Origin: Chrysochromulina tobinii
Taxonomy: Eukaryota; Haptophyta; Prymnesiales; Chrysochromulinaceae
Assembly: GCA_001275005.1 (NCBI GenBank)
Contig: JWZX01002896.1
Coordinates: 1-22,173, forward strand
Direction: 5' to 3'
DNA length: 22,173 bases
In this document: in pieces, positions 571-15,766 of the stretch
How positions within the stretch are numbered: the first letter of the stretch is position 1
How the letters are laid out: every line of letters begins with the position of its first letter
Made by a program: the position numbers and the translations under genes
The notes under the pieces: generated by a model
What the model saw: the letters and a program-made list of their open reading frames with translations, nothing else
What the model was told of the DNA's origin: nothing
The model's database searches: none

Positions 571-3373
571 TCAGCCGTTGCTTGCAATTGTGACGCCCGT
601 GCGCAACCCGTCGCGCTCGCAACGGCGCTCGAGCGTCGAGTAAGTTTGGAGCACCCAGCGCTCGGAGGGCGTGAGGTTCGTCAATAGGGCCGCGTCGGCG
701 GCGAGGGCGGCGGTGGTGGGGAGCTTCGCCCCGGCAGCTTGCAGCACGCGCGCAAGCCATGCGTGCGCAGCAGCCGCGTGCGCCCAGTTGGTTGGGAGCA
801 ACAAGGCAAGGTGCGCCTCGACAACGCGCGGGCTGCGGTCCTCGCCGGTGACATAGTGGATCCCGAAGTGTACCGAGCGCACCGACTGCGGGTTCGGGCG
901 CTGCTTCTCCCCAACGCCCTTGATGATGAGGAGCAGCATCGGCTCGTGCAGCAGCGAGGCAAGCAGGGCGAAGAAGCTCTGTCGCTCGTCAGGATCGAGG
1001 TAATGGAGGGAGAACGAGGCGAGCAGCAGGTGCGGCTGGCGCTCAGTACGGCGCTCCAGTTGTCCAAAGAGCTCACGTACGAGTGCGCTCACGCCCGGCG
1101 CGGCGCTCGTCAGGTACTGGTCGGCGGCCTGCTCAGGCATGAGTGCGGGCCGGCCGTTGAGCGAGGGTTTCGTCATCGCCTCGAAGGCGCGGCGGAAGCG
1201 CCCGCTCGAGGAGGCGACGTCGATCGGCCACAGCCTGCAGTCCTGCTCTTCCCCCGCATGCTCGTGAAGGGCAATCTGCGCTCCAAGGCAGGCCGCGCAC
1301 GTGCCCGCGCCGAGGTCGCTGATCGAGAGCGGCGCGTCGCTAGGTACGCCCGGGGCGCACTCGAGCATCCAAAGGACAGCCTGACGCGCGGCCGCGACAC
1401 GTGGTACGTGCAGCCGCTGCGCATACAGCGCCGCAAACCCGGGCATCGCGTACTGCTCAAGCGTCCAGCACGCGGCGGGCTTAGCACGCCTCTCGAGCGG
1501 CGTGCGCGGGTCGAGCCAACTGGAGGCAGACCAGCTCTTGAAGGCGGCCTGCGCGGCCTCAAGCTCGAGGGGGCTCGCCTGCGGAGGGCAAGGTCATCCG
1601 TGGTCATCCGAGGTCATCCGAGGTCATCCGAGGTCATCCGAGGTCATCCGAGGTCATCCGAGGTCATCCGTGGTCATCCGAGGTCATCCGAGGTCATCCG
1701 TGGTCATCCGAGGTCAACAGAGGTCATCCGTGGTCATCAGTGGTCAGCTGTGGTCAGCTGTGGTCATCCGTGGTCATCAGGAGTGGCTCTCAGTGTGGCA
1801 CTCAGTGGGACTCAGAGGCACTCTGGGCTCGAGCTCGATGGGAGCTCGCCTCGAGATGCAGCTTGTGGGTGAGAGCGTTGAGGACGAGCTTGAGGGAGGC
1901 GCGCATCTTGTCCATAATCTCGGGGGGCACAGGTAGGACAGGTGGCATGCCGCCCTTGGCCAACGAGACGGCAAAGTCGCTCGACACGCCCAGTCGCTGA
2001 CTCAAGCTCGCAAGGTCTGCTTGCATCAGCGAGGCAAGAGCCCCAAGCCCGCTGTGCCCACCAAGGGCGCATCGCCTGAGCACGATGGCGGTCGCATTGT
2101 GCTTCGACTGCGCCGCGTCATCAGCCGGCTTGCCGGGACGCGCGTCAGAGGCGTTCAGAAGGCGGAGGCTGCTGCTGCCCGAGACGGCGCTTATAGATGC
2201 GCGGGCAGCGTGGGCGGCGCGAAAGCCGAAAGAGGACAGGGCATCCGGATGCTTCGACACGGCCGTGCCGGGCTCGGACGTGTTCGGTCGAGCGTCTGCG
2301 TTTGCTGTGGAAGGCACATGCTCGGTGGCTGCAGCCTTCGCCTCGGCGGTTACTGGCTCGGCCAAGGGGCTGGGAGGTTCGGCGGTCACAGGTTCGGCGG
2401 TCCGCAAGGCGTTCGCGCGGCTCAGAGCGGCCGCACGCGCTTGGGTGCGGGTAGCCTCGTTTGCGGCGACGCGTGCGGCGGCGCGTGCGGCAGCTGCGCG
2501 CGCGGCCGCGTCGTTATCCGCCTTGATCGAGCGAACGGCAGCGAATGCTCTGGTAGCCTGGGCAGTAGAAGCTGCTGCAGGAGTTGGAGCAGAAGCTGCA
2601 GCAGGTGTTGCAGTAGAAGATGCAGCAGGATTTGCAGCAGGGACGGTGGGCGCGGCCTCGAGTACCTCCACGTCATTCACAACCTCACCTCCATCGTGGC
2701 CTTCCCTCATTCCAACCTCGGTAGCGTTCTCCGTCTCCCATCTGGTAATCAAGCGGGCATTCTTCTCCCTCGCTGCCGCCTTTCGACTAGCAACGGTATA
2801 CGCCGCCTGCGCGAGCTGCAGAGCGTCGGTGGCCTTGACGCGGCGTGCCTCGCCCACGAGCACGCGCAGCTTACTCACGAGCGAGCTCTCCGTACTCGTG
2901 AGCGCCTCCTCGTGAGCGAGCTGGCATCGCTCCATCAGCTTGACGGCCGCCTCAGCCCTCGCGGCCGCCTCCGCCGCGTTGGCCAGCCTGGCCGCTGCCA
3001 CGGCTTCCCGCATGCTGATGATTGCGGATGAGGTCGCTTGCGCCGGACGCAATCTGTTCATCGCTGCCGCTTCGGCAGCCTTTCTGATCTGCTCCGCCGC
3101 CTTGACAGCGGCCGTGTTCTGTGCTCTTGTGAAGATGGCCGCCTTTGCGACGACAGATGCCTCCCTCGAAGAGTCTTTGTCAAACGGGCGGTCCTCGACG
3201 GTTTTGCAAGCGATGGCCGCTGTGGCGAGCCTCTCAAACACCGAACGGGCCCCAGCTCTCCCCAACAGCTCGTGCGCCTTTCCTTGTCCAGGTGATGTGC
3301 CAATGCTGCTCTCGGCGCAAGTAAGACCTCGCCCAGGCGGGGGCTCAACCGCCTCGAGCTTCGGCTCGCCCAT
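571..3373 (-). CDS. Ala-rich coiled-coil protein with C-terminal methyltransferase-like domain, two exons
   Basis: Predicted join on the minus strand: exon 1 3373-1850 (508 codons), exon 2 1578-571 (335 codons plus stop), both phase 0, 843 aa. Exon 2 stays open upstream of its first Met to a CCCTCCGCAG acceptor, which is why I join it to exon 1. Residues 1-508 are hydrophilic and very rich in Ala, Lys, Arg and Glu, with AEPVTAE repeats and probable coiled coil. I recognise no family there. The C-terminal part resembles a class I SAM-dependent methyltransferase: motif I ISDLGAGT at about 593-601, an acidic strand end WPIDVASS at about 625-632, and LLLASFSLHYL at about 692-702. The substrate is unknown; an Rsm22-like or RNA methyltransferase is only one possibility. 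The fold call is moderate. The alternative is two genes, with the methyltransferase starting at 1446, but that discards 44 coding-like codons. Confidence 0.5.
1579..1849 (-). other. GC-AG intron filled with decamer repeats
   Basis: Predicted intron of 271 nt, sense 5' end GAG|GCGAGC and 3' end CCGCAG|GCGAGC. A GC donor is inferred because the frame then runs phase 0 into phase 0. The interior is mainly a tandem array of 10-bp units. The sequence around both splice sites is a direct repeat: plus-strand 1828-1851 and 1558-1580 share 21 of 24 aligned columns. No transcript evidence is available here; an alternative donor within the array cannot be excluded. Confidence 0.55.
1591..1780. repeat. 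10-bp tandem repeat array, 19 units
   Basis: Nineteen consecutive 10-bp units on the plus strand, mostly AGGTCATCCG or TGGTCATCCG, with a few variants (AGGTCAACAG, TGGTCATCAG, TGGTCAGCTG). In the sense of the surrounding gene the unit reads CGGATGACCW. Because 10 is not a multiple of 3, the TGA in each unit falls in all three frames. There are no unique spacers, so it is not a CRISPR array. It lies wholly inside the predicted intron. Confidence 0.95.
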
Positions 3374-12808: not shown

Positions 12809-14250
12809 TCACCACTCGTCGCGCTCAAGCTCCGCCGGCTCGGGCAGCGTGTTGTCGAGGATGTATGACCGTGGGAATTGGGGATGGAGAACCTCAGCGA
12901 TCAGATTGGGGAGCGCCGCGTGTGCCGTGACCGTCGTCACATGGAAGGCTTCGCTCAGGCCCTCCTCGGTGTAGTAGCGAGCCTCGGCCGTTGGGATGTT
13001 CACGCGCACCACGAGCTGCGGCATGCTCGTCTGCCGCCTGTGAATAGACGGGAGAAGGTGCGCCGACGAGCTGAGCAGCCGACACAGCGCCAGGTTGGAT
13101 GCGTCATCAGGCAGCATAAAAGCAAGCACGTCGAGGGTTTCGAGGCGCCCGAGGGCCCTCCGAAGCGCTGTGTCGAGCGCGCGCTCCTGCTGGGCACCGT
13201 GTCGGTCGCCCCATTCGAGCCCCGACACGGCCGCCGCGCCTCCCTGCGGACTCGAGAGAAGCGGAGTGCTGAGCGACGTCTCGAGCAACGATCGCCTAGC
13301 TTCGAGCGCCGTATCGAGCTCCGAGGCCGTCGTGCGCGCCGAGGCCGTAGCAGACGCGCCCGCGCCGCCGGCTGGTAGCGGCTGCTGCGGCCCGCCTCCG
13401 ACGACGCTCAGAACGACGCTCAGCTCGGGATCGCAGAGCACGATCGTCCAGCCACGCTGCCGCAGCCGCTGGACTAGCGCCGTCGCGAGCGCATCAGCCC
13501 GCTCGGCGACGATGAGGACGGAGCGCGGCGATGGGTGGGCAGACGAGGCGCTGTCGAGGCGGGGCGGCGTCTGGCCAGGGGCGCACTCATGGTGACGTAG
13601 CTCATGGTGCGCCTCCCCCACAGCCACGATCGCGGCCTTGAATAGAATGGGGCCAAGTAACTGGTTCAAGAGCACCTCGGCGGTCACTGTCAGGGCGAGG
13701 AGAGGCCCAAAGGAGGTGCCGAACTCGGTGGAGGCCTTGGCGGCAAGCCCGAGGGTGACGCCGGCCTGTGTGAGGATGGCGCCCATCCGGTAGCGATGAG
13801 ACGCAATCAGAGGCAATCAGAGGCAATCAGAGGCACTCAGAAGCACTCAGACGCACTCAGACGCACTCAGAGGCACTCAGAGGCACTCAGACGCACTCAG
13901 GTGTACTCAGGTGTACTTCCAGCGGCACTCGCCTGCGTCACAAATGCCATCCAGTAGCGCTCATAATGGCCAGGCGCGGCGCCACCCAGCCGGCCTCCCC
14001 AATAAGCTCCGATCGAGATGCCCGCCAGCCGGAGGGCGAACATGAGCGCTGCCGCGGGCAGATGAGGTAGTAGGACCTCGAGCGCGAGATTCATGCCGGT
14101 GAGCGCGAAGAAGGCAATGTACCTGATGAGGGAGGTCATCAGAGGCCATCAGTGGATGAGGGAGGTCATCAGAGGCCATCAGTGGATGAGGGAGGTAATC
14201 AGAGGCCATCCGGTACCTGATGAGGGAGGTCATCGGAGCCGCTCAGAGGC

Positions 14251-14307
<57 letters not shown>

Positions 14308-15766
14308 CACTCAGTGGCCATCAGTGGCCATCAGTGGCCATCAGTGGCCATCAGCGGCCATCAGCGTACACAGGCTCAGACGAATCTCGAAGGATGCGTA
14401 GAAATGAGCGGCGCGAGGGTGTGAAGTTGACCACCACAAACCCGGCGGCCATCGTGATGACCAGAGGCTGATGCAGCCCGATGCCCATGAGCTGCTCCTC
14501 CAACGCCTGCAATCGGATGCAATCAAGCGCAATCAGATGCAATCAAGTGAAATCAAGCGCAATCAGATCCAATCCAGTGCAATCAAGAGGCTGACCTCGC
14601 CCTTGAAGATACCAAACCCGAGCAGCTGCATGGTGAGCGATTCGATGACCATAATCCCAAGCTTGGCCGCGAGCCAGAGGAAAGCAAGCACCGCCGCACG
14701 GTGCGAGCGCGACGAGCGGTCGATCACCTGATGAGGGAGGCAACTATCGATGAGGGAGGCAATCATTGAAGAGGGAGGCAAGCAGAGACGAGCGGTCGAT
14801 TCGCATACCGGAGCCGTTCGTGATGAGGGAGGCAATCATTGATGAGGGAGGCAATCGATTCGCATACCGGAGCCGTTCGTGATGAGGGAGGCAATCATTG
14901 ATGAGGGAGGCAATCGATTCGCATACCGGAGCCGTTGGTGAGGCCATCGACGGCTTCATGGCGGCTGTCGCGACGGCGGCGGAAGAGAAGGAGGAGGCCG
15001 TCTCGTCGCTTGCCGCCTTCTGAGAAGAGACAGTTACGCCAGCGTCGGTGCATGTGATGAATCCATGCACCACGCCACCGAGCGCTGCTCCGAGCACGAC
15101 CGAGATGGCGATCTGGAAGGCAAACAGTCCGAGGACCAGCCCGACGGGGGCTGAGTCTTCGCCCGGCGTGGGCGCGACCACACGCACCATCAGCACTGTG
15201 AGCGCAAATAGCAACACCACCACGACGTCCATCAGAATCACCACCGAGAGCGCCACCGTCGTGAACGGACCGTATGCGTTCAGCTCTGTCACGACAGCGA
15301 TGGCCGATGAGGGTGAGCGCGCGACGGCTAGGCACGCGATGAAAAGGCAGACTGGGAGCACGTCGTTCGGCTGGCTTGCCGTGAGCGAAAGCCACGGCGA
15401 TGCGAAGAAGAAGCCCGTGAAGACCAAGCAATAGGTGACGCAAACGAGGCCGGCGAGGAGAGTCAGGAAGAGCCGGAGTGAGCCTTGCAGCTCGGAGAGG
15501 AGAAATTTGGAACCCGCTGAGAAGCCGATGAAGCCCATGGCGTCGTCGTTGACGATGCGAGCGAGCTGCTTCGTCTCTGTGCTGGACAGCAGCGCGAGCA
15601 GGTGCGGGCCACAGATGACACCTGCGAGGATGTAGCCCGTGACCAGCGGCAGGTTCACCGCCTTCCGCAGCGTCTCGGAGATTGAGGCCGCGGCGGTCGC
15701 AAGGACGATGAAGACTAACACCGTGCGCAAACTTGGAAACTCTTCCTCGAGCGCATCGGGCATCAT
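12809..15766 (-). CDS. CPA2-family monovalent cation/H+ antiporter with C-terminal Rossmann-like domain, five exons
   Basis: Predicted exons: 15766-14927, 14727-14596, 14506-14370, 14122-13933, 13765-12809; 2256 nt, 751 aa. All junctions keep frame. CPA2 antiporters (KefB/KEA/CHX relatives) exchange K+ or Na+ for H+. Exon 1 carries the N-terminal helices with NLPLVTGYILAGVICGP. Exons 2-4 supply AVLAFLWLAAKLGIMVIE, PLVITMAAGFVVVNF and VYIAFFALTGMNLALEVL, the characteristic inverted-repeat helix. Exon 5 begins AGVTLGLAAKAS and continues NQLLGPILFKAAI. The cytosolic tail (about 440-751) contains SVLIVAERADALATAL and DVLAFMLPDD, resembling a TrkA-N/RCK nucleotide-binding fold. Location (plastid envelope, vacuole or plasma membrane) cannot be read. 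Introns 1-3 are GT-AG, intron 4 is GC-AG, and all four are made of related short repeats. Confidence 0.9.
12810..13210 (-). other. C-terminal TrkA-N/RCK-like end of the antiporter
   Basis: Sub-region of the antiporter's exon 5 coding the distal half of its cytosolic domain. It includes DVLAFMLPDDASNLALC and a QLVVRV strand, consistent with the second half of a Rossmann fold that senses nucleotides in Kef-type antiporters. The glycine-rich NAD loop is not canonical (IVAERADALA instead of GXGXXG), so ligand binding is doubtful. Confidence 0.45.
13766..13932 (-). other. Antiporter intron 4, GC-AG, decamer array
   Basis: 167 nt, donor ACGCAG|GCGAGT, acceptor CACACAG|GCC. The GC donor otherwise matches the donor consensus. 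Joining gives FVTQ|AGVTLGL, the expected CPA2 motif. Eleven 10-bp units, sense TCTGAGTGCC/TCTGATTGCC, fill 13801-13910. The last 32 nt (13764-13795) resemble the end of exon 4 (13931-13959): both encode RYxM...TQA. Confidence 0.8.
13801..13910. repeat. 10-bp tandem array, 11 units
   Basis: Plus-strand units AGGCAATCAG, AGGCACTCAG and ACGCACTCAG, with GTGTACTCAG at the right end. The sense-strand reading is CTGAGTGCCT and relatives. It is the same degenerate family as the arrays at 1591-1780 and 14307-14365, in the same orientation relative to transcription. Confidence 0.93.
14254..14306. repeat. (GA)n microsatellite
   Basis: About 53 bp of uninterrupted GA dinucleotides on the plus strand. 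In the sense of the antiporter gene this is a (CT)n polypyrimidine run in the middle of intron 3, about 130 nt before the acceptor. Confidence 0.97.
14307..14365. repeat. 10-bp repeat array in intron 3
   Basis: Five to six 10-bp units, plus strand CAGTGGCCAT or CAGCGGCCAT, sense ATGGCCACTG. It adjoins the (GA)n tract and starts a few bases from the intron donor. Confidence 0.9.
14507..14595 (-). other. Antiporter intron 2, GT-AG, decamer repeats
   Basis: 89 nt, donor GGCGAG|GTCAGC, acceptor GATTGCAG|GCG, phase 0. Nearly the whole intron is a 10-bp-period array of TGATTGC variants (CTTGATTGCA, TCTGATTGCG, CTTGATTTCA). The last unit itself forms the acceptor ATTGCAG. This is the shortest intron in the window. 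Confidence 0.85.
14728..14926 (-). other. Antiporter intron 1, GT-AG, 59-bp tandem repeat
   Basis: 199 nt, donor GCTCCG|GTATGC, acceptor CTCATCAG|GTG, phase 0. It contains two full 59-bp units (14798-14856, 14857-14915) and a partial third that runs across the exon 1 boundary. Each unit includes a copy of the last exon bases plus the donor and two TGATTGCCTCCCTCATC elements. Only the final element has AG, and this is the acceptor used. Confidence 0.85.
14798..14940. repeat. 59-bp tandem repeat, about 2.4 copies
   Basis: Copies begin at 14798, 14857 and 14916, each starting GATTCGCATACCGGAGCC on the plus strand. The third is truncated within exon 1. An exact 14-bp copy of the exon 2 start (GACGAGCGGTCGAT, 14787-14800 versus 14711-14724) abuts the first unit. 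Confidence 0.95.

Follow-up and report, generated by a model that had tools for sequence, protein, structure and literature searches.

Decamer-Array Introns in Chrysochromulina tobinii: A Probable Introner-Like Repeat Family Associated with Exon Duplication

Introduction

The origin of new introns is a long-standing question, and proven young introns are few. The question is raised again by a contig of the haptophyte Chrysochromulina tobinii (JWZX01002896.1, assembly GCA_001275005.1; 22,173 nucleotides, the whole of which is called the window below). Its minus strand carries a cation:proton antiporter gene (15766 to 12809) that is interrupted by four introns, three of which consist largely of tandem units of about 10 bp. 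Are these arrays introns of one repeat family, and if so, how did they enter the genes? An earlier note on the window, made from its letters, proposed an introner-like family that spreads as introns or expands inside them. Here the proposal is followed through the 53.15-Mb assembly of 2,253 contigs, of which the window is one. Sampled loci are labelled in the style of L062, and contigs carry C-numbers.

Results

Introns of the Antiporter Gene

When the four introns are spliced out, the antiporter gene becomes one open frame of 751 amino acids, and the interval 13766..14926 singled out in the earlier note is the exact span of these introns. The spliced protein matches PF00999 (28.1 bits, residues 27-239). 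The eight homologs aligned with it, at 39-47% identity in the search, are unbroken across junctions 2, 3 and 4; they include the MMETSP transcript product P0103. The names of the homologs of the antiporter and of the S41 protease include Prymnesium and MMETSP transcripts, which points to a haptophyte. Junction 1, with the donor of intron 1, appears to be the least secure, as it falls within a variable loop.

Tandem Repeats Finder detected 10-bp arrays in introns 2, 3 and 4, at 13799-13900, 14132-14182, 14311-14364 and 14508-14585. For these introns the description as arrays of about 10 bp stands. It fails for intron 1, which has 2.5 copies of a 59-bp unit extending into exon 1, and 19-bp units carrying TGATTGCCTCCCTCATCA; the decamer extractor found 0 units there. 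Intron 1 is a repeat of the 3' module of the decamer family, not a decamer array. The 3' ends are CATCAG in introns 1 and 3, ATTGCAG in intron 2 and ACACAG in intron 4, as had been read from the sequence, where three of the four were said to end with CATCAG or ATTGCAG. The donor of intron 4 (13766-13932) is GC (GCGAGT), and the first bases of this intron resemble an array unit.

Consensus and Abundance of the Decamer Family

The consensus from 32 arrays is TCTGATKGCC, close to the motif WCKGATKRCC of the earlier note. The distance between neighbouring units is 10 in 135 cases and 11 in 21. TGA is present in 74% of the units, and 50% fit YTNAY, the loose branch-point pattern from which the earlier note supposed that an array could offer many branch points; the CTGAG and CGGAT variants do not match YTNAY. 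The unit extractor itself required GA at two positions. Branch points, stop-codon guarding and splicing enhancers are candidate reasons for the motif, and these counts do not tell them apart. The host U2 small nuclear RNA gave one match (134.1 bits) with GTAGTA; therefore, no unusual branch recognition is needed.

Genome-wide, the two strands carry 560 and 499 occurrences of CTGATGGCCWCTGATGGCC, and its reversed form (read backwards) is found 0 times. The 22-base acceptor module CTGATKGCCTCCCTCATCAG followed by GT is found in 278 + 281 = 559 exact copies, again with 0 for the reversed control. An array caller was applied to 183.5 kb, composed of the window and L031-L065 (five arbitrary 10-kb pieces and thirty kinase loci). 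It reported 19 arrays; by eye, 12 of them belong to the family (5 in the window and 7 outside) and 7 are look-alikes. With L086 added, the same caller reported 4 arrays when the sequence was reversed and 1-2 when it was block-shuffled. The abundance of decamer arrays is beyond chance. Extrapolation from the seven arrays in 161.3 kb gives about two thousand for the whole genome; this is a rough estimate, as the kinase loci bias the sample towards genes.

The pattern scan of viral contigs gave 0 matches, and that of GTDB contigs gave only L086 (WBXE01000042.1, a Verrucomicrobia metagenome-assembled genome), with three exact units in unrelated-looking DNA. This match is probably due to chance. 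As a source of introns, the kinase matches yielded seven split ones, in each of which the two sides share one open frame. Among the breaks read for the bias check described below, L122 proved to be an array intron of 75 bp, to which L121 is possibly related.

Orientation Relative to the Coding Strand

A set of introns chosen without the repeat was obtained by searching the genome for kinesin, Na/H exchanger, AMP-binding and TCP1 domains and taking the breaks where a match stops and resumes. From the kinesin, Na/H exchanger and TCP1 breaks, 32 stretches in 20 regions were picked by hand, mostly with differing open frames on the two sides (at L073:18776, L074:34104 and L076:6787 the open frames on either side are equally long). 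Split matches left out of the set include C1275, C1710, C2008 and C2068. In the 32 stretches (5,560 bp), the strict unit [CT]TGA[TG][TGA][GA]C has 102 sense occurrences and one antisense occurrence, and the loose unit has 174 and 20. In kinase coding DNA (21,635 bp), the strict unit is present 18 times in sense and 14 times in antisense. Since demanding differing frames could favour stop-bearing introns, 20 further breaks whose sides lie in one open frame were added as a check on the bias. They contain 6 strict units in sense and 0 in antisense, and all 52 domain-interrupting gaps pooled contain 108 and 1.

Thirty-five arrays chosen by the pattern were also scored (15 distinct loci from the first 30 and 20 later places, several on shared contigs). 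With a segment coding model in which the arrays were masked, 34 of them are sense, 30 by more than 8 and none opposite by more than 8. The summed flank score favours sense for all seven family arrays outside the window, narrowly for L046 (4.4 and -3.1). The arrays run with the coding strand nearly always in the sampled DNA, where intergenic DNA was covered incidentally. The arrays of the antiporter gene are all oriented alike relative to transcription, as the earlier note had observed, and the test of strand bias that it called for, run here on the sampled loci and without RNA, revealed no equal use of the two strands.

A naive codon-usage strand caller was dropped. Nine loci that scored low with it were reread by eye; eight are sense coding and L101 is unclear. 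Several flanks of the reread loci held further arrays, and the caller was rebuilt with array masking.

The 35 pattern arrays contain 431 sense stops versus 30 antisense stops, and 32 of them have sense stops in all three frames, which is partly built in, as the pattern contains TGA. A 10-bp unit with TGA gives stops in three frames and few in the reverse complement; orientation could therefore matter. One antisense array was found, at L034 1100-1185. It lies beyond the kinase domain, in frame and stop-free in the kinase open reading frame (ORF); with one repeat included, the insertion measures 72 bp, and its direct repeat is identical at 14/14 positions. Sense copies could persist as introns, and antisense copies as peptides read in frame; this single case is a lead in that direction.

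Rejoined Genes and Intron Positions

A GT or GC donor, an AG acceptor and a conserved frame on removal, as in U2-type introns, are seen in antiporter introns 2-4, L024 and L061. When flanks were joined minus the array and one copy, long frames were obtained at five of nine loci. L061, from an arbitrary contig, restores a strumpellin protein (PF10266, 411 bits), whose best stretch, 125-399, spans the junction at 200. L024 restores a CNNM transporter, which aligns to CNNM4 without a gap at the junction.

In kinesin genes, 22 array introns were placed at scattered positions of the domain model, and at each site 70-84 of the 130 pieces of motor match continue without interruption. These positions are approximate, and the clusters near 154 and 218 are possibly shared. 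Two kinesin matches on different contigs, G000:C3:9508-10677 and G000:C2170:40717-41886, have identical scores and represent either duplicated assembly or a recent duplicate.

Exon Copies at the Arrays

With unit-like words masked, 10 of 35 pairs formed by the two flanks of one array score at least 24, versus 32 of 1,190 swapped pairs (Fisher p 7e-8, the swapped pairs being non-independent). The domain set was examined likewise after removal of L066, the second stretch of L078, and L082, which are frameshift-like or intronless. The flanks here were bounded by the domain match and may contain intron. Among the 29 remaining introns, 22 have at least three loose sense units. A copy of the downstream exon is present in 8/29 (10/784 in swapped pairs), and a copy of the upstream exon in 6/29 (13/784 in swapped pairs). 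The masking also concealed copies in L071 and L076 that are visible by eye. The duplication is a feature of the flanks of one locus rather than of swapped flanks, and it is seen in 10/35 and 9/29 introns only.

In clear cases, the direct repeats of the adjoining exon are about 14-38 bp long, variable in length and located at AG/GT, where they span or abut the splice junction. Target duplications of 3-9 bp were not recognized; repeats shorter than those of the clear cases are indistinguishable from chance. In L062, a fresh-looking case, the intron starts with GTGGCGGACGAAGCGGAGGCGACC and the next exon with GTGGCGGAAGAAGCGGAGGCGACC, matching in 23/24 bp. L024 has a 38-column repeat with AG/GT in both copies. 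Some introns begin with the start of the next exon, and others end with the end of the previous exon. In the cases compared in detail, most of the intron is decamer filler, with the duplicate at the junction.

Evidence for local growth includes the 59-bp tandem unit in the window and longer units seen by eye in L073 and L079. In these two loci, both in kinesin genes, the array and the adjoining exon start form several tandem repeats, nearly identical by eye and probably recent. The intron of L074 (C1912:34104-34361) appears by eye to contain a diverged copy of the uninterrupted junction of its two exons.

Discussion

Proposed Explanation

It is probable that the arrays all belong to one introner-like repeat family and act as spliceosomal introns, and that the family inserts with exon duplication and then grows by tandem duplication. 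The homology-based intron positions, the sense bias, the exon copies and the two restored conserved proteins are its observed basis. Similar introns are present at many non-homologous sites in one genome, as in introners. The insert would be a short run of units of about 10 bp, TCTGATKGCC, often ending in the acceptor module. It would enter an exon, presumably in a single event and by a DNA or an RNA route, usually at AG/GT, and about 14-38 bp of the exon would be duplicated in the process. The host duplicate would provide one splice site, either GT at the intron start or AG at the end, the insert would provide the other, and splicing would restore the former mRNA. Local tandem duplication would then lengthen the array and at times take in the exon copy next to it; the exon copy within the intron would decay later. 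An antisense copy would remain in the message and survive only if the frame is kept. Selection may lie behind the bias; sense copies are proposed to dominate because only they bear acceptor-like and branch-like sequence.

The introner-like character first suggested from the window is supported by intron placement from homology, genome-wide occurrence and coding-strand orientation. The two alternatives offered then, spreading as introns and expansion inside them, both seem true, because an exon repeat often adjoins the arrays, as expected after an insertion, and the arrays also grow locally.

A more specific version is tentative and less likely than not. It supposes that the repeat is mobile and makes introns, that its 3' end, with the acceptor, recurs while its 5' end varies, and that the target duplication is long and of variable length. 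Such a pattern is expected if excised intron RNA, or a SINE-like (short interspersed element-like) transcript ending in it, were copied back at nicked AG/GT exon sites. A sense insert would be an instant intron, with stops in all frames guarding against retention, and an antisense insert would be a stop-free coding insertion, as in L034. The recurrent 3' end, the variable 5' end and the long duplications would fit an RNA route. The introns with an exon copy at their 3' end (L061 and L097) lack the recurrent 3' end, which counts against it.

Several results weigh against insertion of a single repeat family. Array splicing is deduced from DNA and homology, not from RNA. Presence and absence were compared at paralogous kinesins of one genome only, with no empty allele from a relative. 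Four of the nine joined loci (L012, L015, L016 and L027) gave a short or unconvincing frame, and nothing is drawn from them. No exon copy is recognizable at 25/35 pattern arrays and 20/29 domain introns, for which age may account, and the nine domain introns with either copy come from only six regions. In L073 and L079, the copies are in part the outcome of later tandem duplications that took in both array and exon. The copy is at the 5' end in some introns and at the 3' end in others; therefore, no single fixed insertion chemistry covers all of them. By count, 7/29 domain introns have no array. As for orientation, the first caller (codon usage, 300-bp flanks, arrays unmasked) assigned only 26/35 arrays to the sense strand, with 23 sense versus 5 antisense beyond 10 units, and the count of 34/35 is a second attempt with a model rebuilt after the nine loci had been inspected.

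Alternative Explanations

Three other explanations were considered. The AGGT model of Rogers (1989) needs no mobile element: exon pieces with AG/GT are duplicated in place, and the spacer becomes an intron. The decamer would then arise repeatedly by slippage of splice signals (a GTGAKTGCC donor and a CTGAY branch site), and the likeness among arrays would reflect shared constraint. The direct repeats at the splice junctions and the local tandem growth agree with this model, as does the third gap of L076, where an exon copy is present and decamers are absent. Units differ somewhat more across arrays (3.7 mismatches) than within them (3.0), and some donors, such as GTGAGTGCC, look like a unit by eye. 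However, the inserts of the young cases, L062 (23/24 bp) and L034 (14/14), already hold several family units and the CCTCCCTCAT end, and the 559 exact copies of the acceptor module are hard to obtain by convergence. We regard this model as unlikely.

That the arrays are expanded minisatellites in ordinary old introns, with the bias arising only from the tolerance of splicing for sense units, is improbable. The majority of the tested array introns have no exon copy, and introns without an array exist (L080 and L081), which speaks for it. Against it, the array introns of kinesin paralogs are scattered, at sites that most motor matches span unbroken, and exon copies scoring at least 24 are about tenfold more frequent than in swapped pairs. 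Translated or regulatory repeats that are not introns at all are very hard to credit: the antisense reading of the L034 array within the kinase ORF is of this kind, but homologs are continuous across the examined sites, and the sense stops in three frames of 32/35 pattern arrays, partly built in as they are, point the same way. The preferred explanation remains an introner-like family that inserts with exon duplication.

Comparison with Known Systems

A survey of introners from 2022 names target duplications of 3-9 bp and lists Chrysochromulina, a haptophyte, among its examples, with 4-bp duplications (PMC9860276). As in the introners of that survey and those of Micromonas and Aureococcus, similar introns are found here at many sites, the duplicated target partly supplies the splice site, and rare GC donors occur. 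Unlike them, the body of the decamer family is a variable-length array of units of about 10 bp, and in the clear cases its duplication varies in length, at about 14-38 bp. The survey filtered out families rich in short repeat motifs, which fits the remark in the earlier note that no introners were known to be described as such decamer arrays. Decamer-array introns were not named in the literature searched, at the level of titles and abstract openings, and the part of another source drawn on here mentions introner-like introns for Pelagomonas only (PMC9481584).

Tandem duplication of an exon segment bearing AGGT is known from Rogers 1989, ATP2A1 (Hellsten 2011), the potato RNA-dependent RNA polymerase (RdRp) gene and fission yeast cases (PMC4974935). 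The decamer family appears to resemble these cases in that an AG/GT exon segment is duplicated, the intron runs from the GT of one copy to the AG of the other, and the peptide is unchanged. It differs in having shared filler between the copies and many sites in one genome. Introner elements of Amoebophrya have inverted repeats of 8-20 nt, direct repeats of 3-5 nt and non-canonical splice sites (PMC7789003). They share with the decamer family the direct repeats at exon/intron borders and the repeated introns, whereas the decamer family uses GT/GC-AG sites and decamer arrays.

The best reading is that the family is a new variant of introners or of intron gain by tandem duplication, sharing parts of each known system. 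It points to an intron class that an introner survey discarded as low complexity. One genome with many candidate introns of graded age, in about a third of which the exon duplicate is readable, could make intron gain open to dissection.

Features of the Window and Minor Observations

The features of the antiporter gene are listed in Table 1, together with a further array, which is probably an intron of another gene.

Table 1. Positions of exons, introns, exon copies and repeat arrays in the window.
Feature	Positions	Strand	Evidence
Exon 1, antiporter	14927..15766	-	Spliced frame; PF00999 match
Intron 1, 199 bp, GTATGC..CATCAG, 59-bp and 19-bp repeats of the TGATTGCCTCCCTCATCA module	14728..14926	-	Tandem repeats, spliced frame, homologs
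Copy of exon 2 start within intron 1, ATCGACCGCTCGTC, 14/14 identical	14787..14800	-	Alignment
Exonic counterpart of the ATCGACCGCTCGTC copy, start of exon 2	14711..14724	-	Alignment
Copy of exon 1 end within intron 1, 14/15 identical to 14927-14941	14868..14882	-	Alignment
Exon 2	14596..14727	-	Spliced frame
Intron 2, 89 bp, from GTCAGC to TTGCAG; array of CTTGATTGCA / TCTGATTGCG decamers	14507..14595	-	Junction agrees with homologs
Exon 3	14370..14506	-	Spliced frame
Intron 3, 247 bp, from GTACGC to CATCAG; arrays of CTGATGGCCA and CTGATGGCCT decamers, CCTCCCTCATC modules, (CT)n run	14123..14369	-	Repeats, spliced frame, homologs
(CT)n microsatellite within intron 3	14254..14306	-	Tandem Repeats Finder
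Exon 4	13933..14122	-	Spliced frame
Intron 4, 167 bp, from GCGAGT to ACACAG (GC-AG); array of TCTGAGTGCC / TCTGATTGCC decamers	13766..13932	-	Repeats, spliced frame, homologs
Possible decayed copy of exon 4 end near the 3' end of intron 4, 12/13 versus 13947-13959; score 21, within the control range, suggestive only	13783..13795	-	Alignment
Exon 5 through stop codon	12809..13765	-	Open frame, spliced frame
Further decamer array between two open frames of the minus strand; 18.8 copies of the CGGATGACCT unit, followed by 4 looser ones	1591..1823	-	Tandem Repeats Finder (1591-1778), array caller

A possible second short-repeat family, with units of 10-11 bp around CGAGAT / ATCTCG, is seen in L035 (458-502), L047 (357-387), L048 (2599-2642), L052 (3064-3087), L058 (2766-2806) and a gap of L076 (C152:6563-6657).

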